This document shows, in pieces, positions 28,967 through 46,972 of a stretch of DNA of 47,864 nt (position 1 is its first letter; each line of letters starts with the position of its first letter). Below the pieces are notes generated by a model that saw only the letters and a list, made by a program, of their open reading frames with translations, was not told the DNA's origin and made no database searches. Location of the stretch: contig JAESPD010000028.1 in NCBI GenBank assembly GCA_016756855.1, positions 1 to 47,864 of the forward strand, given 5' to 3'. The stretch comes from a gamma proteobacterium endosymbiont of Lamellibrachia anaximandri. Its GTDB lineage: Bacteria; Pseudomonadota; Gammaproteobacteria; Chromatiales; Chromatiaceae. A program made the position numbers and the translations under genes.

Positions 28967-29821
28967 TCAAACACTTGGTGAATTTCGTTCAATCACACCT
29001 TCAAGCATGACCAAAAAATCATCGGCATTCTGGACCTGGGCAAGCTCGTCAGTGGTAACTGTGTAGCCATAATCCTGTGCAATCGCCTCATACCGGGGAA
29101 TCCGGCTACGAAACAGTTTGGGAAAGACCCAGCGCACGAATTTAATGGGTTCGATCATCGCCACATAGGGCAGATCCTGTTCCTGTAAATAGAGATCGAG
29201 CTGCTCATCGAGAAAGTTCTCCCGATAGTAGAGTGGCTTGGGGTCACGCACAGCCCGCTCGATCAGCGCTGTCTCGTCACGCTCCGAAGCCCGAATATAG
29301 AGTATCATCGTATGCTCGGAGAGCAGTTCGATGATGCCCGGTTCGTCCAACTCACACAGACTGCCCCCTACATCGTTGATGAAATGGCGATACCCATAAA
29401 TCCGTTGTGCCTTGCGGATAAATCCTGGCACATCCCTCATGGCCGCAATCTCCGCCTCGCGATGCAGATTCTGACGCCGTTTGAATTCACGCAACGGCAT
29501 ACCGCCAAGCTCAGGGTTACCCAGCATGCCCAGAAAGATCGAAACCGGCTTGAGATGATCGACAGTGATATTATTGCGAATATAGATGGAGTCGGAACGA
29601 AGCAGGTCCCGCAACACAGGCACCTGCATCGCCTGCTCCTTGATATGATCGAGGATCGGCTCATCCAGATAATGGGTGCCGATCCGGTAATCTCCCGAAT
29701 AGTGAAACCAGTCACTGTCACGCAGGATATTGGACAGACGCGTCTTTCCAACGCCTGACATCCCCATCAGCGTCACGCACTTGTGCTCCCATACCCGGAA
29801 GTCACCCACACTCAGTTTCAC
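28967..29821 (-). CDS. P-loop ATPase of unknown role upstream of the MetA-type gene
   Basis: This 284-residue protein has a Walker A motif GMSGVGKT near residue 20 and a probable Walker B-like strand TMILYIRA near 170. The long helical middle contains LDEPILDHIKEQ, PELGGMPLREFKRRQNLHREAE and DVGGSLCELDEPG. No helicase, transport or kinase signature is complete; a nucleotide-dependent kinase is possible. The start chosen is GTG 29821, because AGGAG lies 10 bases ahead; GTG 29830 is only one base from it. It shares a transcript with the MetA-type gene, so a role in amino-acid metabolism is possible but not shown. Confidence 0.7.
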   Translation of the reverse strand: MKLSVGDFRVWEHKCVTLMGMSGVGKTRLSNILRDSDWFHYSGDYRIGTHYLDEPILDHIKEQAMQVPVLRDLLRSDSIYIRNNITVDHLKPVSIFLGMLGNPELGGMPLREFKRRQNLHREAEIAAMRDVPGFIRKAQRIYGYRHFINDVGGSLCELDEPGIIELLSEHTMILYIRASERDETALIERAVRDPKPLYYRENFLDEQLDLYLQEQDLPYVAMIEPIKFVRWVFPKLFRSRIPRYEAIAQDYGYTVTTDELAQVQNADDFLVMLEGVIERNSPSV

Positions 29822-30015
29822 TGCAACCACACTCCTAAAGAAATCCGGCTTGATGCCGATACCCAGCTAGTCGATCGATTCTACGAGGGTAGACGAAGGG
29901 TGCCAAGCTGAGAACACTTCACTTTACCTATATTATCGCCAGAGAAGCCCAATGACCTCGTTTCATCCTCGATCATCCGGCCGTTTACAACATTTTTGAC
30001 TGTAACAGGATTCAC

Positions 30016-30822
30016 ATGAGCCAATTGGAGTTAAGTGACCTCAGCGTCATCCTTGTCGAGCCTTCGTTGACCCAGAGGCATATCATCGATGGCTATCTCT
30101 CTGACTTGGGCATCTCCAAGATTGAAACCTTGGAATCCGGTGAAGCAGCACTGGAGGCCATGCGCCGCACCCCACCAGACCTGGTCATCAGCACGCTCTA
30201 TCTGCCCGATATGACCGGGACCGACCTGGTCACTACGATGCGTAGCGAACCACTACTCGTGGATACAGCCTATATCCTGATCTCCAGCGAAACCCGGTTC
30301 CGCTTTCTGGACCCGATTCGCCAGGCAGGTGCAATCGCCATTCTTCCCAAGCCCTTTTCGGAAGATGACCTGAAGATTGCCTTGAAATCCACTGTCGACT
30401 ATATCGAAACACCCGAAATCCATCTCGACAATATCGATACCGAATCGTTAAGCATTTTAGTGGTGGATGACAGCCAGATGGCGCGAAACCATATTCGCAG
30501 GCTGCTGGAAGCCATGGGCATGGAGCAGATCACCGAGGCGAAAAATGGCTCAGAGGGGGCACAACTGGTCAATGACCACTATTTTGACCTCGTCATCACC
30601 GACTACAATATGCCGGAGATGAATGGGCAGGAGTTTATCGACTATATCCGAAATAACAGCTTACAGCCGACCATTCCCATTTTGATGATTACGAGCGAGT
30701 CTAACCAGAGTCGTCTTGCTGCCGTACAGCAATCAGGCGTTTCCGCCATCTGCGACAAACCTTTCGAACCCATCATTCTCAAGCGCTATCTGGAAAAAAC
30801 GCTGGCAGACGATAATAACTGA
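30016..30822 (+). CDS. dual-receiver response regulator, first receiver degenerate
   Basis: This 268-residue protein is two CheY-like domains and nothing else. REC1 (about 10-130) keeps the Lys of LPKPF, but its acid pocket reads VEP, and the phospho-acceptor position, by alignment with REC2, is Thr60 in LVISTLYLPDMTG. REC2 (about 146-265) is complete: VDDSQ, Asp196 in LVITDYNMPEMNG, TSE and DKPF. REC1 is thus a pseudo-receiver that cannot be phosphorylated in the usual way. There is no output domain, so it works by protein contact. It lies 284 bases before rpfG on the same strand and probably belongs to the Rpf circuit. Confidence 0.85.
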   Translation: MSQLELSDLSVILVEPSLTQRHIIDGYLSDLGISKIETLESGEAALEAMRRTPPDLVISTLYLPDMTGTDLVTTMRSEPLLVDTAYILISSETRFRFLDPIRQAGAIAILPKPFSEDDLKIALKSTVDYIETPEIHLDNIDTESLSILVVDDSQMARNHIRRLLEAMGMEQITEAKNGSEGAQLVNDHYFDLVITDYNMPEMNGQEFIDYIRNNSLQPTIPILMITSESNQSRLAAVQQSGVSAICDKPFEPIILKRYLEKTLADDNN

Positions 30823-31106
30823 ACATTGCAAAAAATTAAGCTAACACATTGTAAAATAATATAAATATGAGATCATTCACCTGTTCCTGCCTGCAAATGC
30901 TATTTTTTTAACGAGTGGGATTTACCCTGAACCCAGCCTTCCATTAACAGAAGCTCACAGTATCGTTGTTTGATCGTGAAAAGGTCACATGACCAACACC
31001 TGATTTGTGATTTTAATTCTGCTAAAATGTTGCCTGAAACCACCCATCAGGTAAAGTTGGGTTTGCACTACTTTTCAATGAGTTGGCAATGAGGTTAGAC
31101 TAAGAC

Positions 31107-32180
31107 ATGCCCCAGGTTCTAATCATCGATGATCAATCCATCAGCCGGATGATTCTGGAGGAACTCACCCGCTCAATCGAACCGGACGTCACCACGCAAT
31201 CCTTTGCCGACCCTGTCACTGCGCTGGAGTGGGCCAAACACAACGAGTTCGACCTTGTCATTACCGATTTTAAAATGCCGCAGATGGATGGCGTGGAGTT
31301 TATCCAGTGGCTGAGAAAAATCCCCTCCTGCAGTGATATCCCCGTTGTGATCATCACTTGTGTCGAGGATAAGTCGGTGCGATACCGTGCACTCGAATCA
31401 GGCGCAACCGATTTCCTGACAAAACCGATTGACCATACCGAATGCAGGGCCAGGTGCCACAATCTGCTGACAATTCGCCGTCAACAGCAGATTATCAAGG
31501 ATCGCGCCTCCTGGCTGGAACGGGAGATCAGGGATACCACCGAGGAGTTGCATCTGCGCGAACAGGAGACTCTGCTGCGCTTGGCAAAAGCAGGTGAGTT
31601 CCGTGATCAGGAAACCGGGAACCATGTACTGAGAATGTCTCAATACAGCGAGATCATTGCCGAAGAGATCGGCATGTCTAAAGATGAGTGCCACCTGATC
31701 AGGCACGCAGCACCAATGCACGATATCGGAAAAATCGCTATCCCGGACGCGATTCTGCGCAAGGCTGGCACCCTAGCGGCCGATGAGTGGCAGATCATGC
31801 AGAACCACTCACAGGCAGGATATGACATCTTATGTGAGAGCCCTTCCAAATATCTGCAGATGGGCGCGATTATCGCCCTCCATCACCATGAGCACTTTGA
31901 TGGCAGCGGCTATCCACACGGAAAAAAAGGAGATAGAATCCCAATAGAGGCGCGCATCGTAGCTGTTGCCGATGTTTTCGATGCCTTGATTTCGGAAAGA
32001 CCTTACAAGAGAGCATGGAGCATAAACGGAGCATTGAACTATCTGAAGCAGGAGAAAGGCCGCCATTTCGACCCAGACTGTCTGGGGGCATTTCTCACAC
32101 GCTTTGAGAGGATCATCGAGATTCACAACTCACTCGACGATTCTCCGAAACAGGCCGCAGGTTTAGGGGCCTCTGAATGA
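31107..32180 (+). CDS. rpfG: RpfG-type response regulator with HD-GYP phosphodiesterase
   Basis: This 357-residue protein has an N-terminal receiver with Asp54 (LVITDFKMPQMDG) and Lys in TKPID, a linker helix, then an HD-GYP domain. The metal-binding pair is His205-Asp206 (MHDIGK), the HHHEHFDG stretch follows, and the signature is Gly268-Tyr269-Pro270 (GSGYPHG). HD-GYP enzymes of this type hydrolyse c-di-GMP. All motifs are complete, so activity is likely. The length and layout match RpfG of Xanthomonas, the output regulator of DSF sensing. RpfC and RpfF homologues lie 5-9 kb on, which supports the name. Confidence 0.88.
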   Translation: MPQVLIIDDQSISRMILEELTRSIEPDVTTQSFADPVTALEWAKHNEFDLVITDFKMPQMDGVEFIQWLRKIPSCSDIPVVIITCVEDKSVRYRALESGATDFLTKPIDHTECRARCHNLLTIRRQQQIIKDRASWLEREIRDTTEELHLREQETLLRLAKAGEFRDQETGNHVLRMSQYSEIIAEEIGMSKDECHLIRHAAPMHDIGKIAIPDAILRKAGTLAADEWQIMQNHSQAGYDILCESPSKYLQMGAIIALHHHEHFDGSGYPHGKKGDRIPIEARIVAVADVFDALISERPYKRAWSINGALNYLKQEKGRHFDPDCLGAFLTRFERIIEIHNSLDDSPKQAAGLGASE

Positions 32181-32411
32181 ACCTGGACGTGTTGAATTGT
32201 GAGATAAAATTTTACTATGCGAGGCGGAAATTGCGGGCAATAGGTAGCCTATTGTCCAAATTTTCAACGCAGCAGAGGGGATTTTCTTCAGCGACTCCTT
32301 ACGCCTCACCCCTTCGAGGGTGGCATGAGAGACGGCTCCCGGCCGTTTTTTGGGTCACAAGACTGCCGTCCATACATCGTATGGCAGCTCTTTAACGCCA
32401 AGGAAAGCAAT

Positions 32412-34370
32412 ATGCAAAATCAGCCAACCTTCAATAACAGACATCCGTCCGGTTTCAATCAATTCCCCGATTTTGAAATCGAGCATTCAGGCATTCGCCT
32501 GCTGGTCGCCCTACCGCTTTTTTCCTGGCTGGTTATTCAGACCTACCTCAGCCACACAGGTTCCGAACTATCTCCACCGTTGATCCTTGCGACTGTTTAC
32601 GTTGTTTTTGCCGCTACCATGTTGCTCTTTATTCTCAACGACCCACACCCCTCGTCTTCCCGGCGTATTGCCGGCATCATTGCCGATGTTGCCTTTCTCT
32701 CCTGCCTCACTTTTTTCAGCGGAAAAAATGGTCTGTTTCTGCTATTTCTCTATCCACTGCTCATTAGCAGCAATGGATTTCGGTTTGGCGCCTCCTATCT
32801 CTACTTCACCCTCTCGGCCACTATTCTCGGTCTCGGTATCGTACTGATTGCGAGCACCTTCTGGTCTCAGCATCTAATGCAGGGAATAGGCGCTTTAGCT
32901 GGAATAATCGGCGTCTCTCTCTACCTTGCATCTATCATTAAGGCCGTGGGAAGTGATAATTGGGATCCATTGGATTCTACAGAGGTCACCACGAAAGAAG
33001 CACTTCCGGAGACTCCGCAAGATACAGGCATCGAGAGTGCCCAGGATACCGCAGATCTGGCATTCCCTTCCTCAGAATCCACATCTGAAGCCGAGTCAGG
33101 TGTATACAGCGATTATCGCAAAGTATTACTGCTTTCCAGAAATCCGACCAATGCGGAGCGCATCAGTACCTATCTTAAAGACTGGAATCATGCATTCGAG
33201 ACAAGTCAGAACAGCATGCAGGCCTTCAACCGATTGATGGTGAACGCCGACACCCAAGGCATTCAACCCTTTGATATCCTGTTGGTGGATCATCGTCAGT
33301 TGGAATTGGATCCGCTACAGATAGCTGCGGCCATTTCCGAAGAGCCGACACTGGCCAGTACTTCCCTGTTTTTCCTTGGTCCGAAACAGCCTGAGCAATA
33401 TCGCCAACAACTTCTCCAGGCCGGCTATTCACAGATCCTTGAGACTCCACTCAACAAATCCATTCTGTTCGCGGCCCTGCGTGCCAACCCAGAGATTCAG
33501 GATAGTGAAAAGAGCGTTGTCAGCCTGATCAGTCGACTTAACCTAAAAGCCTCCTCTCTCCCACCACAAGAGATCCTCGTTGCCGAAAACAATCCTGTCG
33601 ACCGGAACAGCATCGAACGCGCGTTGAAACAGGAGGGCCATCGGGTCTATGCAGTCGAAAATGGAGAACAGGCGCTGGATGCACTCGAGAGCCACCATTT
33701 TGATCTGGCGATTGTCAATCTCTCCATGCCTATCATGAGCGGCATTCAGGTCATCAAACTCCACCATTTCACCCACTCCATGCGCAGATGGATGCCGTTT
33801 GTCGTGATAACAGACGAGAACTCCCCCACAACCATCAGGGAGTGCGAAAGCGCAGAAGCCGATGCCTGCATATTCAAACCCATTCAACAAAACGAGTTGG
33901 TTAAAACAGTCACTGCGGTTATCTCGTCCGATCAGGAAAAAACCAGAGAAAAGGCAACGGCAACACTTGAAGAGGGTGTCACCACCCGCTTCCATAACGC
34001 CGATACACTGGATGTCAGCGTTCTAAAAAATCTCGAAATACTCGGAAACGATCCGCAGTTCATCTCCAATCTGATTACAACCTTCACTCTCGATAGCGAA
34101 AGAACCCTGCAACAGATGGATCAGGCCCTTGCCGATAACGACAGTGAACTGTTTAAAGACCTCGCTCATCTGTTCGTGGACAGCGCAGGACACTTGGGGG
34201 CATTCGCCCTCTATGAATACAGCCTCAGCGCATCACGTATACTGCCTTCCGAATTCGATGCTCATGGAGCCAACATCCTGCAGGAGATGCGCACCACCTT
34301 CACCCGCACCAGTGACGCACTCATGCGATTTCTCTCCCAGGACGATGAAACCAGCTCCTATCTCAGCTAA
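32412..34370 (+). CDS. kinase-less RpfC/RpfH-like membrane protein: two dead receivers plus HPt
   Basis: This 652-residue protein starts at ATG 32412, with AGGAAAG just ahead. The N-terminal 175 residues hold five or six membrane helices that align with the RpfC input domain of this window: SSRRIAGIIADVA / SHPRRIISIVSDIA, then NGFRFGASYLYFT / NGFRYGERYLHFS and FW-x2-H. A low-complexity linker (176-230) leads to a diverged receiver-like domain (about 235-355) and a second receiver (about 376-500). In the second, the phospho-acceptor Asp is Asn436 (LAIVNLSMPIMSG). The last part is an HPt domain with His586 in LAHLFVDSAGHLGA. There is no HisKA or ATPase domain. In Xanthomonas the gene at this place, rpfH, encodes only the input domain; this is an extended version. 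Confidence 0.82.
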   Translation: MQNQPTFNNRHPSGFNQFPDFEIEHSGIRLLVALPLFSWLVIQTYLSHTGSELSPPLILATVYVVFAATMLLFILNDPHPSSSRRIAGIIADVAFLSCLTFFSGKNGLFLLFLYPLLISSNGFRFGASYLYFTLSATILGLGIVLIASTFWSQHLMQGIGALAGIIGVSLYLASIIKAVGSDNWDPLDSTEVTTKEALPETPQDTGIESAQDTADLAFPSSESTSEAESGVYSDYRKVLLLSRNPTNAERISTYLKDWNHAFETSQNSMQAFNRLMVNADTQGIQPFDILLVDHRQLELDPLQIAAAISEEPTLASTSLFFLGPKQPEQYRQQLLQAGYSQILETPLNKSILFAALRANPEIQDSEKSVVSLISRLNLKASSLPPQEILVAENNPVDRNSIERALKQEGHRVYAVENGEQALDALESHHFDLAIVNLSMPIMSGIQVIKLHHFTHSMRRWMPFVVITDENSPTTIRECESAEADACIFKPIQQNELVKTVTAVISSDQEKTREKATATLEEGVTTRFHNADTLDVSVLKNLEILGNDPQFISNLITTFTLDSERTLQQMDQALADNDSELFKDLAHLFVDSAGHLGAFALYEYSLSASRILPSEFDAHGANILQEMRTTFTRTSDALMRFLSQDDETSSYLS

Positions 34371-34388
34371 TCCTTCGGCCGCTGATTA

Positions 34389-35438
34389 ATGCCAAAACGA
34401 CAGATTGACCCAAAGCTCCAGCCATTTGGTTCGGACGCGCTGAAACTGACAGAAAAAAGACTCAACCGTTTTTTTACCCGTGAGTATCAGGAACAGTTGA
34501 CAAATCCTGAAAAACTCTCCGACAAATTAATCCAAATCGCCTCTCATGGCCCCATGTGGGAAACTACAAGTCATCTGATGGCGCAGCATTACGATGCTTC
34601 AGAAGCTTTTTTCCGCAGTTTTCTGGATAGTGAATACCTGGCCTATTCCATGGCGTTCTACAGCGAAAACGGCGCTACAGCCGCGACGATAGAAATATCA
34701 CTGGAAGAGGCGCAGAGAAATAAATTCAAAACCATCTGCAAACGAGCAGGACTCCAGGGTGATGAGCAGATTCTGAACATCGGCTGCGGCTTCGGCTCTT
34801 TCGAGCGCTACCTGATAGAAAACTATCCGCAACTTCAGATTACTTCGATCACAGCCAGCACAACGCAAAGCAGTTACATCAACGAAGCAAGAAACAATAC
34901 CGCGCATCCCCTTTCATCAAAACGTTTCAAACTCATCACAGGTGATTTTGCAGATCTCACCGAAGAGATGCTTGGGATTGAGCATTTTGACAAGGTTTTT
35001 TCCATTGGTGTTCTTGAGCATGCAAGAAACCTCGCGGATTTATTTAAAAAAATAGCAATTTTAACCAAACCTGGCGGCTACGCGTTCCACCATCTGATTG
35101 TTTCCCGCATCCCTATCCCCCGTTTTCTCACCCCCGAAAAAACACTGATTGGAGACTATTTTCCAGGGGGAAGAATCTGGCCTTACGACCTGATTACCAA
35201 ACAAGAGAGCGGTTTCTCCCTGGAACAGGGCTGGTTTGTCAATGGGATGAACTACTGGCGCACGCTGGATCAGTGGCACGAACGTTTCTGGAGTAACATG
35301 GATAACGTCAACCAGGATGAGCTTTCAACGGACGATATCCAGTACTGGAACGACTACTTCTCCCTTTGCAAAGCCTGCTTTGCCCCGATGGAGGGTGAAG
35401 TATTCGGCAATGGCCAGTTTCTCTTCAGGAAGACCTGA
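34389..35438 (+). CDS. cyclopropane-fatty-acid-synthase-like methyltransferase
   Basis: SAM-dependent methyltransferase of 349 residues in the CFA synthase / mycolate-modifying family. Landmarks: MAQHYDASEAFFRSFLD (67-80), LAYSMAFY (85-91), SLEEAQRNK, SAM motif I NIGCGFGSFERY (130-141), SIGVLEHARN (206-214), and FPGGRIWPYDLI followed by NYWRTLDQWHERFW. The Cys of the usual YSCAYF motif is Met88 here. The His of the active-site loop is not at its expected place (GWFVNG), so classical cyclopropanation may be altered. It begins 18 bases after the RpfH-like gene and is probably co-transcribed. An acyl-ACP or free acyl substrate linked to the neighbouring ACP is inferred. Confidence 0.82.
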   Translation: MPKRQIDPKLQPFGSDALKLTEKRLNRFFTREYQEQLTNPEKLSDKLIQIASHGPMWETTSHLMAQHYDASEAFFRSFLDSEYLAYSMAFYSENGATAATIEISLEEAQRNKFKTICKRAGLQGDEQILNIGCGFGSFERYLIENYPQLQITSITASTTQSSYINEARNNTAHPLSSKRFKLITGDFADLTEEMLGIEHFDKVFSIGVLEHARNLADLFKKIAILTKPGGYAFHHLIVSRIPIPRFLTPEKTLIGDYFPGGRIWPYDLITKQESGFSLEQGWFVNGMNYWRTLDQWHERFWSNMDNVNQDELSTDDIQYWNDYFSLCKACFAPMEGEVFGNGQFLFRKT

Positions 35439-35457
35439 GACACACCTGCATTCTTTG

Positions 35458-36666
35458 TTACTGAAAGGCACGCACGGCAAGCACCGCATTCAACCCACCA
35501 AAAGCGAAAGAGTTACTGAGTGCTGCATTTATGGGCCCAAACCTCACTTCATTGGGCACATAATCCAGATCACATCCATCACCCGCTTCAGTAAAATTCA
35601 CTGTTGGCGGTATGAAGCCTTCCTTCACAGACAATACCGTCGCCACCAGTTCAATCCCACCCGCAGCCCCCAGTGCATGTCCATGCATCGATTTCGTTGA
35701 ACTCACTGCCAAAGAAGCGGCGTTTTCCTTGAAGACCTTGTTGATCGCAGCCGTTTCCGTAACATCATTTGCCTGTGTCGCGGTGCCGTGGGCATTGATG
35801 TATTGCACATCCGCCGGACTCAATTGCGCATCCTGCAGGCACAACCCGATGGTTCTTGCCGCTCCATCCACGGAAGGATCAGTAATATGCCCCGCATCCG
35901 ATGACATGCCGAAACCCGCCAATTCAGCATAGATCTCTGCACCCCTTGCCTTGGCGTGACGTTCCGATTCAAGAACAAGGATACCTGCCCCTTCCCCGAG
36001 CACCATGCCAGATCTGTCCTTGGAAAATGGCCTGCAGGTATCCTTTGACAACACCCGCAGCATATCCCAGGACTTTAACAGTCCACAGGTGAATGGTGCA
36101 TCGGTGCCACCCGCGATAGCAACGTCAACCAGACCATGTCGTATCATCAACGCTGCCTGAGCAATGGCATGTCCAGACGAGGAACAGGCGCTTGTTACGG
36201 AAAACACTGGCCCTTTGATCTTCATTTGCAGACTGACTTGGCTTGCTGCCGCACTCGGCATTCCTTTTGGTATCGTCAGTGGATGTACACGTGATCGCCC
36301 GTCACGATAGAGCTGGGAATAGGTGGTCCCATCCGTCTCCTTTCCACCACAACCTGTACCGATAATCGCAGCAGCATTCTCATATTGCCCGGCGGTTAAT
36401 CCAGAATCAGTCAAAGCCTCTTTGGTTGCAATCAAGGCAAACTGTGAAAAACGATCGAGATAGGGCAGTAGCGCCTCGTCGAGAAAGTCGACCGCCTTGA
36501 AATGCGGTACTTGAGCACCAACGACCACCCGCAAACCACTGCAGTCTATTTTTTCAAGATTACGAATCCCGGCAGTCCCCGCAAGCAATGCCGAGCGAAA
36601 CGGCTCAATGCCCACACCAAGCGCGGAAACAGATCCCAACCCGGTAATAACAATACGTTCGCCCAC
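35458..36666 (-). CDS. NodE-like beta-ketoacyl-ACP synthase
   Basis: Condensing enzyme of 402 residues with a complete triad: Cys161 (VTSACSSSGHA), His293 (NAHGTATQAND) and His330. The segments TIPKGMPSAAA, GGTDAPFTCGLLKSW, DTCRPFSKDRSGMVLGEGAG and KSMHGHALGAAG are the NodE form. Housekeeping FabF has KSMTGH where this has KSMHGH. NodE works with NodF to make the special unsaturated acyl chain of rhizobial Nod factors. Here the gene follows the ACP gene by five bases. I infer a dedicated acyl-chain elongator for a signal or lipid, not general fatty-acid synthesis. It is convergent with the methyltransferase gene. Confidence 0.85.
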   Translation of the reverse strand: MGERIVITGLGSVSALGVGIEPFRSALLAGTAGIRNLEKIDCSGLRVVVGAQVPHFKAVDFLDEALLPYLDRFSQFALIATKEALTDSGLTAGQYENAAAIIGTGCGGKETDGTTYSQLYRDGRSRVHPLTIPKGMPSAAASQVSLQMKIKGPVFSVTSACSSSGHAIAQAALMIRHGLVDVAIAGGTDAPFTCGLLKSWDMLRVLSKDTCRPFSKDRSGMVLGEGAGILVLESERHAKARGAEIYAELAGFGMSSDAGHITDPSVDGAARTIGLCLQDAQLSPADVQYINAHGTATQANDVTETAAINKVFKENAASLAVSSTKSMHGHALGAAGGIELVATVLSVKEGFIPPTVNFTEAGDGCDLDYVPNEVRFGPINAALSNSFAFGGLNAVLAVRAFQ

Positions 36667-36671
36667 GGAAC

Positions 36672-36914
36672 TTACTTGCCCGCAAGCAGGCTGCCGATAC
36701 CGTCCACGATGTCGCCAACCGTTTCCAATTTTTCAAGTTCAGCATTAGGTATCTCGACGTCGAAAGCCTCCTCGACCTCATAGACAATCGTTATTGCGTC
36801 CAGTGATGAGACACCCAAATCCTGAAGACGTGATTCACGTTTGATGTTGGCTGTATCCAGCTGCTTTTGTGTGGCGATCGCCGATATTACGACTGTTTCA
36901 ATATCCAGACTCAT
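36672..36914 (-). CDS. dedicated acyl carrier protein (NodF-like partner)
   Basis: This 80-residue ACP starts at ATG 36914; a longer in-frame form begins at 36941. The attachment Ser is Ser37 in LGVSSLDAITIVYEVEEAF; the usual Asp before it is Ser36, as in some specialised ACPs. The remaining helices (DVEIPNAELEKLETVGDIVDGI) are standard. It carries the growing chain as a phosphopantetheine thioester for the ketosynthase gene, which it precedes by five bases. Housekeeping AcpP lies beside fabD/fabG/fabF, which are absent here, so this is a second, special-purpose carrier. Confidence 0.85.
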   Translation of the reverse strand: MSLDIETVVISAIATQKQLDTANIKRESRLQDLGVSSLDAITIVYEVEEAFDVEIPNAELEKLETVGDIVDGIGSLLAGK

Positions 36915-37269
36915 CTCTCTGATTACCTTTACTAATACCAACCAAATGCGAATTAAAGACCATGACCGAAAAATGCCTCAATGTCGTGTCCTGAAACAAT
37001 CGCTGCGAAGAGATACAAAGCAAATATGAATTAATTATTTCACATCGAAATGCAGAATAAATATTGTTGTTCGTTATAATATCAGTGCTTCTTCGCATTC
37101 TCTGGCATAGACTTGGAATATGCTTATACGCGATCCTTCAACCTCAAAGGAGGAAACACGCATACCATCGTCAGACACTCCAATAAAGGAACAACACCCT
37201 AAATTCCGGCTATCGGCCTATTGACCAACCCTATCCAACCAAATCCCGCACAACGATATTATACAAGTT
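36915..37269. other. divergent promoter region between the ACP gene and rpfC
   Basis: These 355 AT-rich bases separate two divergent units, so both promoters must be here. TATAAT lies at 37075-37080 facing rpfC, but I see no good -35 before it. At 37120-37224 a 34-codon frame (MLIRDPSTSKEETRIP...) is open but has no ribosome-binding site. A strong AAAGGAGG at about 37147 is followed at the right distance by ATA rather than a normal start. No clear Shine-Dalgarno precedes the rpfC ATG at 37270. Confidence 0.4.
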
Positions 37270-39831
37270 ATGCAGTCTATTAAAGACATTTATCAATTTC
37301 TAAAACGCATATTTGTAGGCAGAGAAAACTCTGAGCAGGAACAGGCGCTTGTCCGCATCCTCCTGTCGTCCGCCGTGCTTATCTATCTGTTATTTTCAGG
37401 ACCGACCAATCTGCCCCTGCAGCATCCCCGGACACTGACCACGATCCTGATATCCAGTTTTCTCATTTTTTCCATTGGAATTTTCATTACTACGTTGATC
37501 TGGAGGGGAGTATCCCATCCACGCCGCATCATCAGCATCGTGTCGGATATAGCTGGTTTCAGCATCGTATCAAGTTTTACCAGTGACCTCCTTGCACCAT
37601 GGGTCTGGCTTTATCTATGGGTGACGTTCGGCAACGGGTTTCGCTATGGAGAGAGGTATCTCCATTTTTCCACAGTCCTTTCCGTCGTTGGTTTCAGTAT
37701 CGTCATTGCCACCAATGAATTCTGGCACTCCCATATCAGCCTGGGATTAGGCCTGCTTGCATCTTTTCTGGTATTACCAGGATATGCCGCAGTGCTGATC
37801 AGGCGCATTCATAAAGAACGTAAACGTGCTGAGGACGCTAACAGGGCAAAAAGTGATTTTCTCGCCCGCATGAGCCATGAAATCAGAACCCCTCTAAACG
37901 GAATCATTGGTATCAGTGAGCTGTTGAAGTGCTCCGATCTTCCCGCAGAAGAGCGTGAGTATGCCGATGCCATCGCCAATTCAGGCCAAACACTTTTCAT
38001 GCTCATTGAGGACATACTTGACTTTTCCAAGATTGAAGCAGGAAAACTCATTCTCGAACAGACACAATTTGATCTGCATGAGCTGATTACTCACACCGTG
38101 CGCATGCTATCTCCGCAGGCGCAACAGAAAAATATACGTTTGATCAACAATGTCAGCCTTGAAATTCCTCACCTACTCATAGGCGACCCCTTACATCTGC
38201 GCCAGATTTTGATCAATCTGATCGGCAATGCAATCAAATTCACCTCTACGGGAACCGTAGAGATACGCTGCCGTTTAAATCAGCTCATTGAAGAGCAGGC
38301 TTTGATTCATTTCGAGGTCATAGACAGTGGAATCGGTATTCCGCAAGAGAAGCAGGCAACCATCTTCGATAAGTTCAACCAAGCTGATGAAAGCACCACC
38401 CGACGTTTTGGTGGTAGTGGCCTCGGAACCGCCATCGCCAAGCAGCTGGTCGAGTTGATGGGTGGGCAGATTGGATTGGAAAGCACACCTGACGTCGGCA
38501 CGACTTTCTGGTTCGATATCGAATTCAAATCCAGTTCAATCCCAGCCAAAGCCGGCATAGACGGACAATTGGAAAACTGCCGGGTAGTCCGACTCTGCGA
38601 AAAGACCGGCGAAAAGACTAGGACCGGAAATTATCTTCAGGAGTGGGGAGTCTCTTTTCAGGATGTCCAGAGTTCACGGGAGATGTTTCGGCTCATACTC
38701 GGAGAAAACCATCAGCAGGCACCCTATCAACTATTAATTATCGATAAAGTCCCTGTGGATGAGCAGATGCGGGAACTGCTCGAATCCTTCCGTGACGAAC
38801 TTGCACTGGACAGTTTCGACATTTTGATTGTACTACCCGATGGTGTGCCAACGTTTCCATTGGGCGAGGTTAGCAGACTTATATCAACCATCCCCTCTCC
38901 CGTTGACAAATCCATGCTCTTCAACGCACTGCATGCCGCCCATGCTAACCGGGCTGAACAAGAGGCTGTCGCAGACTTGAAAGCAAAAGCTGCAAACAGC
39001 CTGAGCGGCTCAAAAAAGCAGCGCATTCTTGTCGGCGAGGACAACTCGACCAATCGAATGGTGGTGGGAAGAATGCTCGAGCTTGCAGGACACCAATTCA
39101 AACTTGTCGAAAACGGTCAGGAGGTACTCGATGCCTTGGAGAGCGCACCATTCGATCTTGCCATTGTCGATATGCAGATGCCGGTTCTCGGTGGACTCGA
39201 TGCTTTCAAGATGTACCAATTCGCCAATGGCGTGGATGCAAACGTCCCATTTGTCATGTTAACCGCCAACGCCACACTGGAAGCCAGGCAGGAGTGTGAA
39301 GACGCCGGGATTCAATTTTTCCTGACAAAACCTGTTTCTTCATCGAAACTCTTGGACACCATTGCTCAAGCTACTCATACAGAGCCAGAAAAAACAGCTT
39401 CCATTAAATTGAGTTCGATAGCACAGCCCCAAGCTGCGGATGCCGTTCCTGCCGTCATCGATCGCAGGGTGTTTGATGAAGTCGTCAACCTGGGTCAGGA
39501 CAATGACTTTCTCGAACGCCTGGTAGACAACTTTCTGCACGACAGCCGGCAGCTGATCAGCGCCATGAGCAAAGCACTCTCAGCCAACAACCCCGCCGAT
39601 TTCAAAGACTCGGCCCACGCCATGAAGGGAACCGCTGCCTATCTTGGCCTACAAGAACTCACCAGAGCTTCAACTGATGCTAATCAGGTGGACGACTTGG
39701 CGCTCAACAACAGGGGTGCGCATACGCTGACGTCCATTGAAGAAGCATTCAGCCGCGCAGAATCAATCCTGCGACAGGAGCTGATATCACGCTCAGCAAC
39801 TGGAGATAATCGGTCTCAGCCCACCGCCTGA
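37270..39831 (+). CDS. rpfC: RpfC-type hybrid sensor kinase for a DSF-family signal
   Basis: This 853-residue protein has the RpfC layout. It has five or six membrane helices (about 30-180) with SHPRRIIS and GNGFRYGERYL, which match the DSF-sensing input domain of Xanthomonas RpfC. HisKA follows, with His203 in FLARMSHEIRTPLNG, then HATPase (NLIGNAIKF, DSGIGIP, GGSGLGTAIAKQLVELMGG). A diverged receiver-like segment (about 435-560) lacks an acceptor Asp. A complete receiver carries Asp634 (LAIVDMQMPVLGG), and HPt carries His783 (AHAMKGTAAYLG). It would autophosphorylate and relay to RpfG. The N-terminus FLKRIFVGRENSEQ aligns with the start of RpfC, so the ATG is right. The last 16 bases overlap the end of rpfF. 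Confidence 0.9.
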   Translation: MQSIKDIYQFLKRIFVGRENSEQEQALVRILLSSAVLIYLLFSGPTNLPLQHPRTLTTILISSFLIFSIGIFITTLIWRGVSHPRRIISIVSDIAGFSIVSSFTSDLLAPWVWLYLWVTFGNGFRYGERYLHFSTVLSVVGFSIVIATNEFWHSHISLGLGLLASFLVLPGYAAVLIRRIHKERKRAEDANRAKSDFLARMSHEIRTPLNGIIGISELLKCSDLPAEEREYADAIANSGQTLFMLIEDILDFSKIEAGKLILEQTQFDLHELITHTVRMLSPQAQQKNIRLINNVSLEIPHLLIGDPLHLRQILINLIGNAIKFTSTGTVEIRCRLNQLIEEQALIHFEVIDSGIGIPQEKQATIFDKFNQADESTTRRFGGSGLGTAIAKQLVELMGGQIGLESTPDVGTTFWFDIEFKSSSIPAKAGIDGQLENCRVVRLCEKTGEKTRTGNYLQEWGVSFQDVQSSREMFRLILGENHQQAPYQLLIIDKVPVDEQMRELLESFRDELALDSFDILIVLPDGVPTFPLGEVSRLISTIPSPVDKSMLFNALHAAHANRAEQEAVADLKAKAANSLSGSKKQRILVGEDNSTNRMVVGRMLELAGHQFKLVENGQEVLDALESAPFDLAIVDMQMPVLGGLDAFKMYQFANGVDANVPFVMLTANATLEARQECEDAGIQFFLTKPVSSSKLLDTIAQATHTEPEKTASIKLSSIAQPQAADAVPAVIDRRVFDEVVNLGQDNDFLERLVDNFLHDSRQLISAMSKALSANNPADFKDSAHAMKGTAAYLGLQELTRASTDANQVDDLALNNRGAHTLTSIEEAFSRAESILRQELISRSATGDNRSQPTA

Positions 39832-40715
39832 CACATCAAATCTTCTTTTACTCCCCAACGCCGTTCTTGGGCACGTAGCAGATAGTCCATGAGCCGCAGG
39901 TTTTTCTTACTCAGCCCCATCGCCGCATCTACCCACATCGTGGTGATCTTCATCAGCTCTTCATAGGTAACCGGATTAAACTGATCCATGATCTTATCGA
40001 GACAGACAAATCCCGCTGAGCGATTCTGCTGGTACTTTATATAGTTGTTGACCGCATCCTCGCCCTTGCCATCCGGGGCAACCACATCAACAAGCCCCAG
40101 CTCATACAGTTCCCGTGCCGTGTAGACTTTGCCGGAAGCAATTACACGTTTTGCCAGTGCAGGTGCCATGCGCCTGGCGAGAAAACTAAAGGCACCCATC
40201 CCCGGAAAGAGACCGAAAACCGTCTCCGGAAAACCAAAGGTTGCGCTCTCCTCGGCAATCAACACGTTGGTGGAAAGCGCCGCCTCAAAGCCGCCTCCCA
40301 GCGCCTCTCCCTGCACCAGGGAAATTGTCGTAAATGGCAGGCCATAACCGATCGATGAAGGATAGAGAATATCGATACAGGATTTAGCATATTCCATCAG
40401 GGATTCGCGGTCTTTACGCTCAATCAAGTCGATAAAATGAGCCAGATCCCCCCCCAGATTGAAAACACCCGGGGTCGCCGAACTCAGAACCTGATACCGC
40501 AAACGATTTTCATCATTTGTATTATGTCCGTAGCTGGCATATTCACGAATCAGCTGCTGCGCCTTGGCAACATCATCCAGCAACTCCATACTCATGCATG
40601 GGCGTCCTGGATACTGTAGTTTCGCCCAAACTGCGTTGTACTCAGGTTCATATTTAACTTCAACATGATCATATGAGTTGTTAAGACGGATTTGAGGTTG
40701 CAGTTTATTCATCAT
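39816..40715 (-). CDS. rpfF: RpfF-type DSF synthase (crotonase fold)
   Basis: This 299-residue crotonase-fold enzyme has the RpfF-specific form of the active site. Glu144 is in ALGGGFEAALS and Glu164 in GFPETVFGLFPGMGAFSF. The 20-residue spacing and context equal Glu141 and Glu161 of Xanthomonas RpfF, which dehydrate 3-hydroxyacyl-ACP and release the cis-2-unsaturated acid. The tail WVDAAMGLSKKNLRLMDYLLRAQERR is also RpfF-like and is absent from beta-oxidation hydratases. The ATG at 40715 has AGGGG eight bases ahead. The gene is convergent with rpfC and overlaps it by 16 bases. No rpfB (acyl-CoA ligase) is in the window. Confidence 0.92.
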   Translation of the reverse strand: MMNKLQPQIRLNNSYDHVEVKYEPEYNAVWAKLQYPGRPCMSMELLDDVAKAQQLIREYASYGHNTNDENRLRYQVLSSATPGVFNLGGDLAHFIDLIERKDRESLMEYAKSCIDILYPSSIGYGLPFTTISLVQGEALGGGFEAALSTNVLIAEESATFGFPETVFGLFPGMGAFSFLARRMAPALAKRVIASGKVYTARELYELGLVDVVAPDGKGEDAVNNYIKYQQNRSAGFVCLDKIMDQFNPVTYEELMKITTMWVDAAMGLSKKNLRLMDYLLRAQERRWGVKEDLMCQAVG

Positions 40716-44909: not shown

Positions 44910-46778
44910 TTAGATGCTGTTCATTTCCCTGTCACATTCGATATGCAGATCGAAATGAACGTCATCTGGAAACTCTTGGCCGATGATCCAGATTTGCGTC
45001 AGCTCTTCACTTAGCGTCGGCAATACCGTGAGTGAACTGCGAGTGCGTCTTTGGTCAAAAAAGGCGAAGGGTTCATCGAGAAAGAGAAACTGCTCGGCAT
45101 CAACGGTGCGCTTGATCAGTTCCTGGGAGAGCGCCAGCCGCACCGCCAGCATAATCTGCCGTTGGGTACCACTGGAAATCTCATCCAGATCCATGAAATC
45201 ACGTTTTTCACTGGAAAATGCCCGCACGCTGAGATCATCTGCAATCTGCAAATGTTCATATCGGTGCTCGGTAAACAGCGGGAGCATATTGCTTACCAAA
45301 GATTTGAGCTTGACGTTGAACTTGTTGGAGACCTCGCGGATGGCACCCTGAATCAGTTCGGCAGCAAGTTCACAGGTTGCGACCTGTTGCGCCTGTTCAG
45401 CCACTTTGTTTTTCAGGCTGTCGCGGATGGTGATCAGGCCGTCCGCCTTGTCAATCCTGGCCTGTTCCTGCCGAATCGCTTCATCCAGCTCCCCAACCCT
45501 CTCCTGAGCCTTGTCGATAGCATAGCGCAGCAGGTTTTGCTCGTTTCCGACCCCATCCCGAACCTCAGGGGCATCCGCCATAAACCCAGCCACACGCTGG
45601 CTCAGGCGTTCTCTTGCCGCCTTATCCACTACCACAGTTACGATTGATTGAGGTTCATCATCCATGTCACCGGTATTTTCGGTTTCATCGACAACTTCAG
45701 GACTGTCTGATTCCTGCACGGCTTCAACTGGGTTTTCAAGGCCATCCAGTTCGGCTGCCAATGTCTGCGCTACTGCTTCAAGACTGGCGGCACGACGATT
45801 GAACACGCCACGACGAATCCAGAAAATGATGAAGAGAACAGCAAAGACCGCTACTGCGATAAGCAGCATCTCCACCTGCCACTGCGGTACATGCCCTGCA
45901 AGCCAGTCGGAGGCCTTCATCGCAAATTTATGCTCAGGCATCCTCACCAGCAGACCCCAGAGTCCAGCGGTAACCAGCGTCAGGATCAACAGAATGAAAC
46001 GAAAAAAGGCGGCTCGCCCCCGGCCGCCGAGCGCTGCCTTACGCACCGGCAGTGCGTCCTGATAGGCGTTGGACGCATCGTCGAGCGTTTCAACATGGTG
46101 ATTATGGTCACCGATCTGCCTGTTGAGCTGGGCTCGTTCATCCTCGAGCAGGTGCAGATATCCCGGATCAATGCCGACATCGTCGATCTGTTCATTTAAA
46201 TCAGAGATTTCCCGATCCGTCTCTTCAATAACGCCTTCAGCTTCGGCGATATCCTCCTGATTGGCAGCAGCGCAATATTCGAGCGTCACCACCCCTGCCA
46301 TTGTTTTGACCACGTAGCTGTGAGGATGAGGAGTCGTGATTTCCCGCTGCGCCAGATAGAAGGATTCGATGAATTCATCGAATTCATAGCCAATCAAGTC
46401 GTAGAGTTTGTCGGCAACCGCTTCCACACCACGAGCCAATGGCTCACCACCGGTAATCTCCTCCAGGATGGAGAGCATAGCACTGTGGTTTCCCGCATCA
46501 TCGAGAAAACGCTCCAGGTGATATCGCTTATGGTCACTTGCGGTGAAATCCAGTTCCACGGAACAGTGTGTCTCTCCCCACAGAATAATCTTTTCGAGGT
46601 CATCGTCGCCGAGGGAAAAACTGCGTCCGAAGAGCGCAAAACAGACGGTTTCACCGATGGTGCTCTTACCCGACTCGTTGGGGCCGGTAATACCGATCAG
46701 ACCATTTTCCGGCAGATTCTCAAGCTTGAGGCTGGAATATTTCAGGACGTTTTTAGCAACGATGCGGTGAATTATCAT
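44910..46778 (-). CDS. membrane-spanning SMC/Rad50-like ATPase (YhaN-like)
   Basis: This 622-residue protein has the split ABC-type ATPase head of Rad50/SbcC/YhaN. Walker A GPNESGKST is near residue 33, the Q-loop region SFYLAQREITTPHPHSYV is near 143, the signature SSGTQRQIMLAVRLAL is near 545, and Walker B LFLDEPFAFFDQRRTRSS is near 575. Two coiled coils flank the middle, but in place of a zinc hook there are two membrane helices (about 262-283 and 303-325). The start is ATG 46778, overlapping the small upstream gene as ATGA with GAGGG ahead. No SbcD/YhaO-type nuclease lies beside it. A DNA-repair, DNA-transport or defence role is possible; none is shown. Confidence 0.8.
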   Translation of the reverse strand: MIIHRIVAKNVLKYSSLKLENLPENGLIGITGPNESGKSTIGETVCFALFGRSFSLGDDDLEKIILWGETHCSVELDFTASDHKRYHLERFLDDAGNHSAMLSILEEITGGEPLARGVEAVADKLYDLIGYEFDEFIESFYLAQREITTPHPHSYVVKTMAGVVTLEYCAAANQEDIAEAEGVIEETDREISDLNEQIDDVGIDPGYLHLLEDERAQLNRQIGDHNHHVETLDDASNAYQDALPVRKAALGGRGRAAFFRFILLILTLVTAGLWGLLVRMPEHKFAMKASDWLAGHVPQWQVEMLLIAVAVFAVLFIIFWIRRGVFNRRAASLEAVAQTLAAELDGLENPVEAVQESDSPEVVDETENTGDMDDEPQSIVTVVVDKAARERLSQRVAGFMADAPEVRDGVGNEQNLLRYAIDKAQERVGELDEAIRQEQARIDKADGLITIRDSLKNKVAEQAQQVATCELAAELIQGAIREVSNKFNVKLKSLVSNMLPLFTEHRYEHLQIADDLSVRAFSSEKRDFMDLDEISSGTQRQIMLAVRLALSQELIKRTVDAEQFLFLDEPFAFFDQRRTRSSLTVLPTLSEELTQIWIIGQEFPDDVHFDLHIECDREMNSI

Positions 46779-46972
46779 GACCATCCCTCGTCTTCAAGTA
46801 CCTTTAGTTTACGCAGCACTCTCTCCATCGCGACTGCAAAACTCTCCTCATCGAACTCATCTCCTGAGTTTCGGCGACGATCTCGTTCCGCTTCGCAATA
46901 ATTAATGAATTCCCGGGCCGAAACAGCAGTTTCCTCGGCCTTTGTGATCTCTGTCTGGTCGGGCAAAGACAT
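46775..46972 (-). CDS. small acidic helical protein coupled to the ATPase
   Basis: This 65-residue protein (MSLPDQTEITKAEETAVSAREFINYCEAERDRRRNSGDEFDEESFAVAMERVLRKLKVLEDEGWS, shown here only as its make-up) is mostly charged helix. It contains one Cys, no signal peptide and no known domain. The start is ATG 46972. Its TGA overlaps the ATPase ATG in the sequence ATGA, so the two are translated as a pair. It is probably a partner subunit, perhaps binding the coiled coil; function unknown. Confidence 0.65.
   Translation of the reverse strand: MSLPDQTEITKAEETAVSAREFINYCEAERDRRRNSGDEFDEESFAVAMERVLRKLKVLEDEGWS

Follow-up and report, generated by a model that had tools for sequence, protein, structure and literature searches.

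The stretch of DNA analysed here (the window: 47,864 nucleotides of contig C127 in the 4.26-Mb genome of a gammaproteobacterial endosymbiont of Lamellibrachia anaximandri) contains, at 30016–40715, an expanded Rpf locus in which genes for fatty-acyl chemistry are embedded, and we consider it reasonably likely that this locus encodes an Rpf/DSF-type quorum-sensing system with its own precursor-building module. The observation of the expanded locus, made in the first-pass annotation, is confirmed: RpfG, an RpfH-like protein, RpfC and RpfF are all encoded, as judged from the domain architectures and the presence of both catalytic glutamates in RpfF, and the genes for a SAM methyltransferase (MT), a beta-ketoacyl-ACP synthase (KAS) and an acyl carrier protein (ACP) sit between the RpfH-like gene and rpfC. 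Two details of that description have to be corrected. The gene at 30016 (30016–30822, plus strand), there taken for RpfG, encodes a protein with two REC domains (Pfam Response_reg, two stretches), relatives of which flank rpfG in several of the fetched loci; RpfG itself, with the REC and HD_5 architecture of an HD-type c-di-GMP phosphodiesterase, is encoded at 31107–32180 (plus strand). The three acyl genes do not form a single operon: the MT gene (34389–35438) is on the plus strand and starts 18 bp past the RpfH-like gene, whereas the ACP gene (36672–36914, with an ATG at 36914 and an alternative TTG start at 36941) and the KAS gene (35458–36666) lie 5 bp apart on the minus strand. The ACP-KAS pair and rpfC (37270–39831, plus strand) are divergent, and the 355 bp between them (36915–37269, counted from the ATG starts) are conserved in the six congeneric sequences aligned and probably contain promoters in both directions. 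A promoter scan of the whole locus yields no more than the chance level (12 found versus 12.3 expected), and terminator-like sites are somewhat above chance (16 versus 10.4 expected, sd 3.6). A 287-aa ORF that adjoins the locus (28967–29830) has no Pfam match and is kept in congeners.

The window RpfF (39816–40715, minus strand; its gene is convergent with rpfC, with 3' ends overlapping by 16 bp) is a crotonase-family protein and a predicted cis-2-enoyl signal synthase. It matches Xanthomonas RpfF (3m6m) with E = 3.3e-61, and its Glu144 and Glu164 align with conserved glutamates that we take to be the catalytic E141 and E161 of the Xcc protein. With 342 bits, it exceeds the cutoff of 177 for the NCBIfam crotonase model NF006452; unlike Xanthomonas RpfF, it falls below the NCBIfam RpfF equivalog cutoff (NF053515; 248 versus 550 bits) and is a divergent RpfF-family protein rather than a close orthologue of the Xanthomonas enzyme. 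The next RpfF matches in the same genome are partial (36 and 31% identity), and relatives at 95–96% identity come from the endosymbionts of Escarpia laminata, E. spicata, Lamellibrachia barhami and L. anaximandri, which makes the source organism a symbiont of vestimentiferan tubeworms, of the Endoriftia kind. RpfC is a hybrid sensor kinase (HisKA, HATPase_c, REC and Hpt), so that an RpfF with both glutamates is accompanied by the RpfC hybrid kinase and the REC-HD protein RpfG, as in the Rpf/DSF systems. The locus shares with Xanthomonas the architecture of RpfF, RpfC and RpfG, the order of rpfG, the RpfH-like gene and rpfC, and the convergent orientation of rpfF relative to rpfGHC, and differs in the three acyl-chemistry genes inserted between the RpfH-like gene and rpfC. 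The rpfGHC operon of Xanthomonas is described in excerpts of PMC3744752. As a separate observation, RpfF-type crotonases with 37–42% identity to the window protein (hits H56–H61) are encoded on plasmids of Methylobacterium, Sphingomonas and Bosea.

The RpfH-like protein (32412–34370, plus strand, with an alternative start at 32325) contains an N-terminal membrane sensor homologous to that of RpfC (28% identity over 134 aa, E = 9e-17), a REC domain and a weak Hpt match below the Pfam cutoff, and no kinase domain was found in the domain scan. Xanthomonas RpfH is small; the window protein resembles it as a sensor-like membrane protein, and differs from it in that it is more than a sensor domain, carrying the receiver and the weak Hpt match. 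The window protein, larger and kinase-less, may serve as an additional receiver of the signal. In locus L062, an apparent fusion of RpfH and MT spans a run of N and reflects a gap in the assembly rather than a true fusion.

The description of the KAS as NodE-like in the first-pass annotation holds, in the sense that the protein groups with NodE, apart from the two FabFs tested. Its ketoacyl synthase domain has an intact Cys-His-His triad, and Cys161, His293 and His330 are invariant in the 14 sequences aligned. At the position matching the E. coli FabF chain-length residue, presumably Ile108, most of the rpf KAS shown have Cys, a replacement that may widen the pocket. The phosphopantetheine serine of the ACP (Pfam PP-binding) is present in an alignment with solved ACPs. 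Other ketosynthases of the genome are 43, 39 and 36% identical to the window KAS, which misses the NCBIfam fabF equivalog (TIGR03150; 443.7 versus 493.75) and passes the broad NCBIfam KAS II subfamily model NF005589 (430, cutoff 387), and in view of the latter match FabF-like chemistry is conceivable. In a tree of 34 sequences made by a careful method, with E. coli FabF and one FabF of the same genome as the only references (two other FabF copies of this genome and the near copies L024, L026, L027, L028, L055 and L061 were left out), 32 sequences are split from both FabFs at 100/100. This set consists of the rpf KAS, NodE, the X. sacchari and G573 proteins and one Paracoccus protein; L113 and L114 are identified as NodE from the position of their ACP-KAS genes next to nodB and nodC, and L116, which is without annotation, is taken as NodE from its location on pSymA and its grouping in the tree. 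The rpf KAS form a group of 26 (99/96) that includes the unlinked L123, and strict monophyly of the 25 rpf KAS without L123 is neither supported nor rejected (p-AU 0.159). Among the matches listed, rhizobial plasmid KAS of the NodE kind are 45.5–49.0% identical to the window protein. As in rhizobial NodF/NodE, the ACP gene directly precedes the KAS gene on one strand; unlike NodF/NodE, the pair lies within a DSF locus, and its KAS belongs to a group of its own. No nod genes are present among the locus genes scanned, and the KAS is therefore named NodE-like rather than NodE.

The MT, termed CFA-like in the first-pass annotation, merits this name at the superfamily level (Pfam CMAS, E = 2.7e-38) and not as a canonical CFA synthase, an identity that is ruled out by the active site and the model cutoffs. 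Compared with the bicarbonate site of E. coli Cfa, which we take to consist of C139, E239, H266, I268 and Y317, the 15 MT sequences counted (of 23 collected) all lack Cys139, with Met in 14 and Thr in one, and mostly keep the other residues (Glu239 in 13, His266 in 15, Ile268 in 14 and Tyr317 in 15); the score against the NCBIfam CFA synthase equivalog is 115.5 bits, far from the cutoff of 400. In the alignment with E. coli Cfa, the shared domain begins at residue 65 of the MT and at residue 118 of Cfa, so that the MT lacks most of the Cfa N-terminal part. The mycolic enzymes, which are also without this part, act on ACP-bound chains and provide a precedent, by analogy, for an ACP-bound substrate of the MT. 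The structural model is good (pLDDT 86.4, pTM 0.88), and its first 45 fold matches are plant N-methyltransferases (TM 0.75–0.81 for the top 20), followed by the Aquifex CFA synthase (0.68) and mycobacterial enzymes (0.63–0.68). The MT resembles the superfamily of CFA synthases, mycolic-acid enzymes and coclaurine N-methyltransferase (CNMT) in its CMAS domain, fold and largely retained Glu, His, Ile and Tyr. The position aligned with Glu204 of CNMT, presumably a catalytic residue (the fold matches include a related enzyme with an E204A mutation), is Gly in the window MT, and no amine chemistry is recognised in the locus, which weakens an N-methyltransferase reading as far as the alignment is a guide.

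The window RpfF has matches in 21 of 55 genomes (the source genome included), in 26 named loci, and in 91 of the 210 order genomes and 67 of the 369 class genomes searched. The genes of the loci were identified with the window proteins as tblastn queries. The neighbourhood is visible in 77 of the 91 order genomes with RpfF, in 21 cases by way of named records assigned to genomes from their contig coordinates, and the other 14 are covered by genome-wide KAS and MT searches only (cut-offs for KAS and MT, respectively, of E = 1e-155 and 1e-60 in the order and 1e-160 and 1e-50 in the class). RpfF is called window-type at an identity of at least 57% or when it is a copy from genus code g29, a typing that follows the RpfF tree, with off-tree sequences placed by identity; the RpfFs of L078, L079 and L081 (48–50%) fall outside the module group in the tree. 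The conserved co-occurrence with rpfF that had been suggested as a check is found: window-type RpfF is present in 39 of the 210 order genomes, 32 of which have the KAS and 27 the MT, and among the 52 with other RpfFs only, the KAS occurs in two (G019 and G057, both unlinked) and the MT in none. Fisher tests give 2e-15 for the KAS and 4e-14 for the MT, values that are descriptive only because related genomes are not independent and inflate the counts. The opposite pattern named in the first-pass annotation, with the module genes beside unrelated loci and never with rpfF, is not what the genomes contain, given that 27 of the 30 MT genomes have a window-type RpfF. Of the 119 order genomes without an RpfF match, G029, G077 and G199 have both KAS and MT; their ACP-KAS contigs break off towards rpfF, of which G199 retains a fragment of 38 residues. 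In G215, the KAS is present but unlinked. Seven genomes with window-type RpfF are without KAS: in G076, G120, G191, G192 and G228 the contig breaks off within or next to rpfF, rpfC or the ACP gene, and in G078 and G079 (L070 and L071) rpfH adjoins rpfC directly and no KAS or MT is found elsewhere in the assembly.

The order rpfF, rpfC, ACP-KAS, MT, rpfH-like, rpfG recurs through Sedimenticola and its kin at 57–67% RpfF identity. In genus code g29 (L073, L075, L076 and L092), the module block is present at 47–51% RpfF identity (58% for a partial copy), with rpfF and rpfC kept beside the module and rpfG and rpfH absent from the fetched stretch. Two genomes from other families of the class contain the same block of rpfF, rpfC, ACP, KAS and MT genes beside rpfG (L121 and L122, with rpfG inverted in the latter), and in L068 the module is kept with rpfF and rpfC in a shuffled order. 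Among the 369 class genomes, the KAS clade is represented in five, namely the source genome, G289 and G566 (linked), and G458 and G573 (unlinked); in G458, RpfF is encoded on another contig than the KAS, with an ACP gene beside it, and the G573 KAS is near the X. sacchari type. The MT clade is represented in the source genome, G289 and G566, the latter two from other families, and appears sharply bounded in our samples since the next best matches in 200 genomes of the phylum score 142–158 bits versus 558 for the window MT itself. Thus, the module is linked with RpfF and RpfC. An ACP gene also neighbours rpfF in two genomes from other families in which no KAS is linked (L035:10504–10746 and L141:4188–4379). 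The L049 record is titled Candidatus Polarisedimenticolaceae (Acidobacteriota by name) and is, by coordinates, G224 of the family of the window, so that its label looks wrong.

The association extends to the type of RpfF. A tree of 78 RpfF sequences made by a quick method (27 with the module, 45 without and 6 on cut contigs; the near-identical congeners L024, L026, L027 and L028 and the short, cut or odd ORFs L037, L074, L085, L090 and L108 were left out) contains one group of 36 (SH-aLRT 97) that unites all 27 module sequences, the 6 from cut contigs, L070, L071 and the long-branched L035, which is without the module. None of the remaining 42 has the module, and the module label needs three changes on the tree; strict exclusion of L070, L071 and L035 from the module clade is neither supported nor rejected (p-AU 0.226). 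When 35 sequences of this clade (L070 and L071 included) are compared with the 42 others, leaving L035 in neither group, several positions differ, for example 168, four residues from a catalytic Glu (Gly in 35/35 versus Asn in 41/42), 189 (Lys in 32/35 versus Glu in 39/42), 272 (Asn in 35/35 versus Asp in 38/42) and 278 (Tyr in 35/35 versus Arg in 39/42). The joint change of charge at the last three positions would fit a new partner surface or pocket; ancestry alone could explain it. Four genomes (G191, G192, G195 and G200) have two RpfF matches each. The first copy (49–58% identity) lies within a module locus in G195 and G200, and in G191 and G192, where the contig is cut, its type is assigned from identity. 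The second copy (36–46% identity) is encoded with rpfC and without the module in the stretch seen, which is only 3.3 and 10.7 kb for G191 and G192, and the three of these four copies that are in the tree group with conventional RpfFs. G195 and G200 thus have a conventional second RpfF without the module, and, judging from identity, G191 and G192 probably do as well. In G015 (L032:3088–14911), a conventional RpfF and two RpfC-like genes lie between HrpB-MobA and double-receiver neighbours; the same neighbours flank the module locus of G056 (L064), which shares the genus code of G015, an arrangement that looks like an exchange of entire rpf loci at a single site.

Given the acyl-ACP chemistry of RpfF, which dehydrates 3-hydroxydodecanoyl-ACP and cleaves the thioester (excerpts of PMC5011732), a gene set that joins an ACP, a condensing KAS and an MT to RpfF is most simply read as a precursor-tailoring module. 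With the gene content, the active-site residues of RpfF, KAS and ACP, and the linkage of the module, RpfF and RpfC as observed, we infer a substrate shared by the module and RpfF, an order of reactions, a site of methylation and a product as follows. The private ACP and the NodE-like KAS would build a particular acyl-ACP, with reduction and dehydration carried out by enzymes of the housekeeping fatty-acid synthase, and the MT would add a SAM-derived one-carbon group to the chain while it is carrier-bound. RpfF would then turn the 3-hydroxyacyl-ACP into the cis-2-enoyl form and release the acid, to be detected by RpfC and perhaps also by the kinase-less RpfH-like protein with its sensor of the same type, upon which RpfG would change c-di-GMP. 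Several observations count against this reading: the module contains no ketoreductase or dehydratase; the closest fold matches of the MT are plant N-methyltransferases, and its active site deviates from that of CFA synthase; the MT and ACP-KAS are separated in G029; and RpfF occurs without the entire module in L070 and L071 and without the MT, with ACP and KAS retained, in L047, L049 and G223, and therefore does not need these genes. The locus, the insertion, the NodE-like KAS and the co-occurrence claimed in the first-pass annotation all stand, and its product chemistry is retained here in conditional form.

In the main alternative, the product of the module is an independent lipid or secreted metabolite under Rpf control, and RpfF produces ordinary DSF from housekeeping acyl-ACPs. 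NodE-like ACP-KAS pairs do occur in unrelated clusters, such as the rhizobial nod genes and a plasmid cluster of Xanthomonas sacchari, relatives of the KAS are unlinked in G019, G057, G215, G458 and G573, and in G029 (L130 and L140) the MT travels with rpfH-rpfG on one contig, with other genes on its KAS side, away from ACP-KAS on another. Furthermore, RpfF persists without the module in L070 and L071. Against a separate product, the module is bound to a single type of RpfF, remains beside rpfF-rpfC in loci without a visible rpfG (L075 and L076), and is not accompanied by any further recurring biosynthetic or export gene in a non-systematic survey by tblastn with the window proteins and reading of some ORFs. 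We regard this alternative as unlikely, if still a serious contender.

Rather improbable is a division of labour in which ACP-KAS only supply flux or set the chain length of an ordinary DSF, and the MT acts off the signal or after its release, e.g., on the carboxylate or on a membrane lipid. The loci with ACP and KAS and without the MT are compatible with this possibility, as are the separation of MT and KAS in G029 and the radical SAM protein that takes the place of the MT in L053; by contrast, the MT clade is confined to genomes with the KAS (30/30 in the order and 3/3 in the class), and the two genes lie within 5 kb on one contig in 27 of the 30 order genomes (in G117 both are at contig edges, and in G119 the KAS is). 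There is only a very slight probability that the inserted genes adjoin the rpf genes by chance and without functional significance, a reading that is largely refuted: the rpf block often adjoins HrpB and MobA genes within the family, so that some of the linkage is plain vertical inheritance, yet the same block is found in two other families, its order is shuffled in L068, and all eight locus genes are under purifying selection (dN/dS 0.04–0.28 versus four congeners).

The reading of the module as a supplier of precursors to RpfF has a more specific form, to which we tentatively give somewhat less than an even chance: the product would belong to a new class of DSF-family signals, with a chain built on a private NodF/NodE-like pair and methylated by SAM or cyclopropanated before release by RpfF, and lineages would acquire different dialects through exchange of the modifying step, for which there is a CFA-type MT, a radical SAM protein (L053) or no enzyme at all. 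Comparison of the loci suggests a core of RpfF, RpfC and usually ACP-KAS combined with an exchangeable modifying step. The radical SAM gene occupies L053:13897–15408, and G071, the same genome by coordinates, has no match to the MT clade. In rhizobia, the NodF/NodE pair shapes the acyl tail of the signal to the host, and a private ACP, NodE-like synthase and MT joined to RpfF would, if this interpretation is correct, amount to a parallel, dedicated route to a distinct signal. The DSF signals of Xanthomonas, by comparison, draw their chains from the general fatty-acid cycle (excerpts of PMC5011732). RpfC-RpfG have already been reported in vestimentiferan symbionts and Sedimenticola (PMC10300362, from whose passages on which we draw the module is absent), and a literature search that covered titles and the beginnings of abstracts, with subscription papers outside its scope, found no description of such a cassette; the parts are known, and the combination appears undescribed in the literature searched. 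The module occurs in vestimentiferan tubeworm symbionts and, according to strain records, in cultured Sedimenticola (S. selenatireducens and S. hydrogenitrophicus). Its presence in free-living Sedimenticola means that the cassette is not specific to symbiosis, and because these bacteria are cultured, structure and function are testable and quorum sensing in deep-sea symbioses becomes approachable.

Two further observations concern defence-related genes. The rpf KAS and MT genes of the Sedimenticola thiotaurini MAG BK-3 have between them an IetA/IetS-like pair (PADLOC; AAA ATPase and subtilase) at L051:6092–9404. In the window itself, 44910–46784 encodes an SMC/AAA_23-type protein with weak matches to the defence models mad3 and LmuB.
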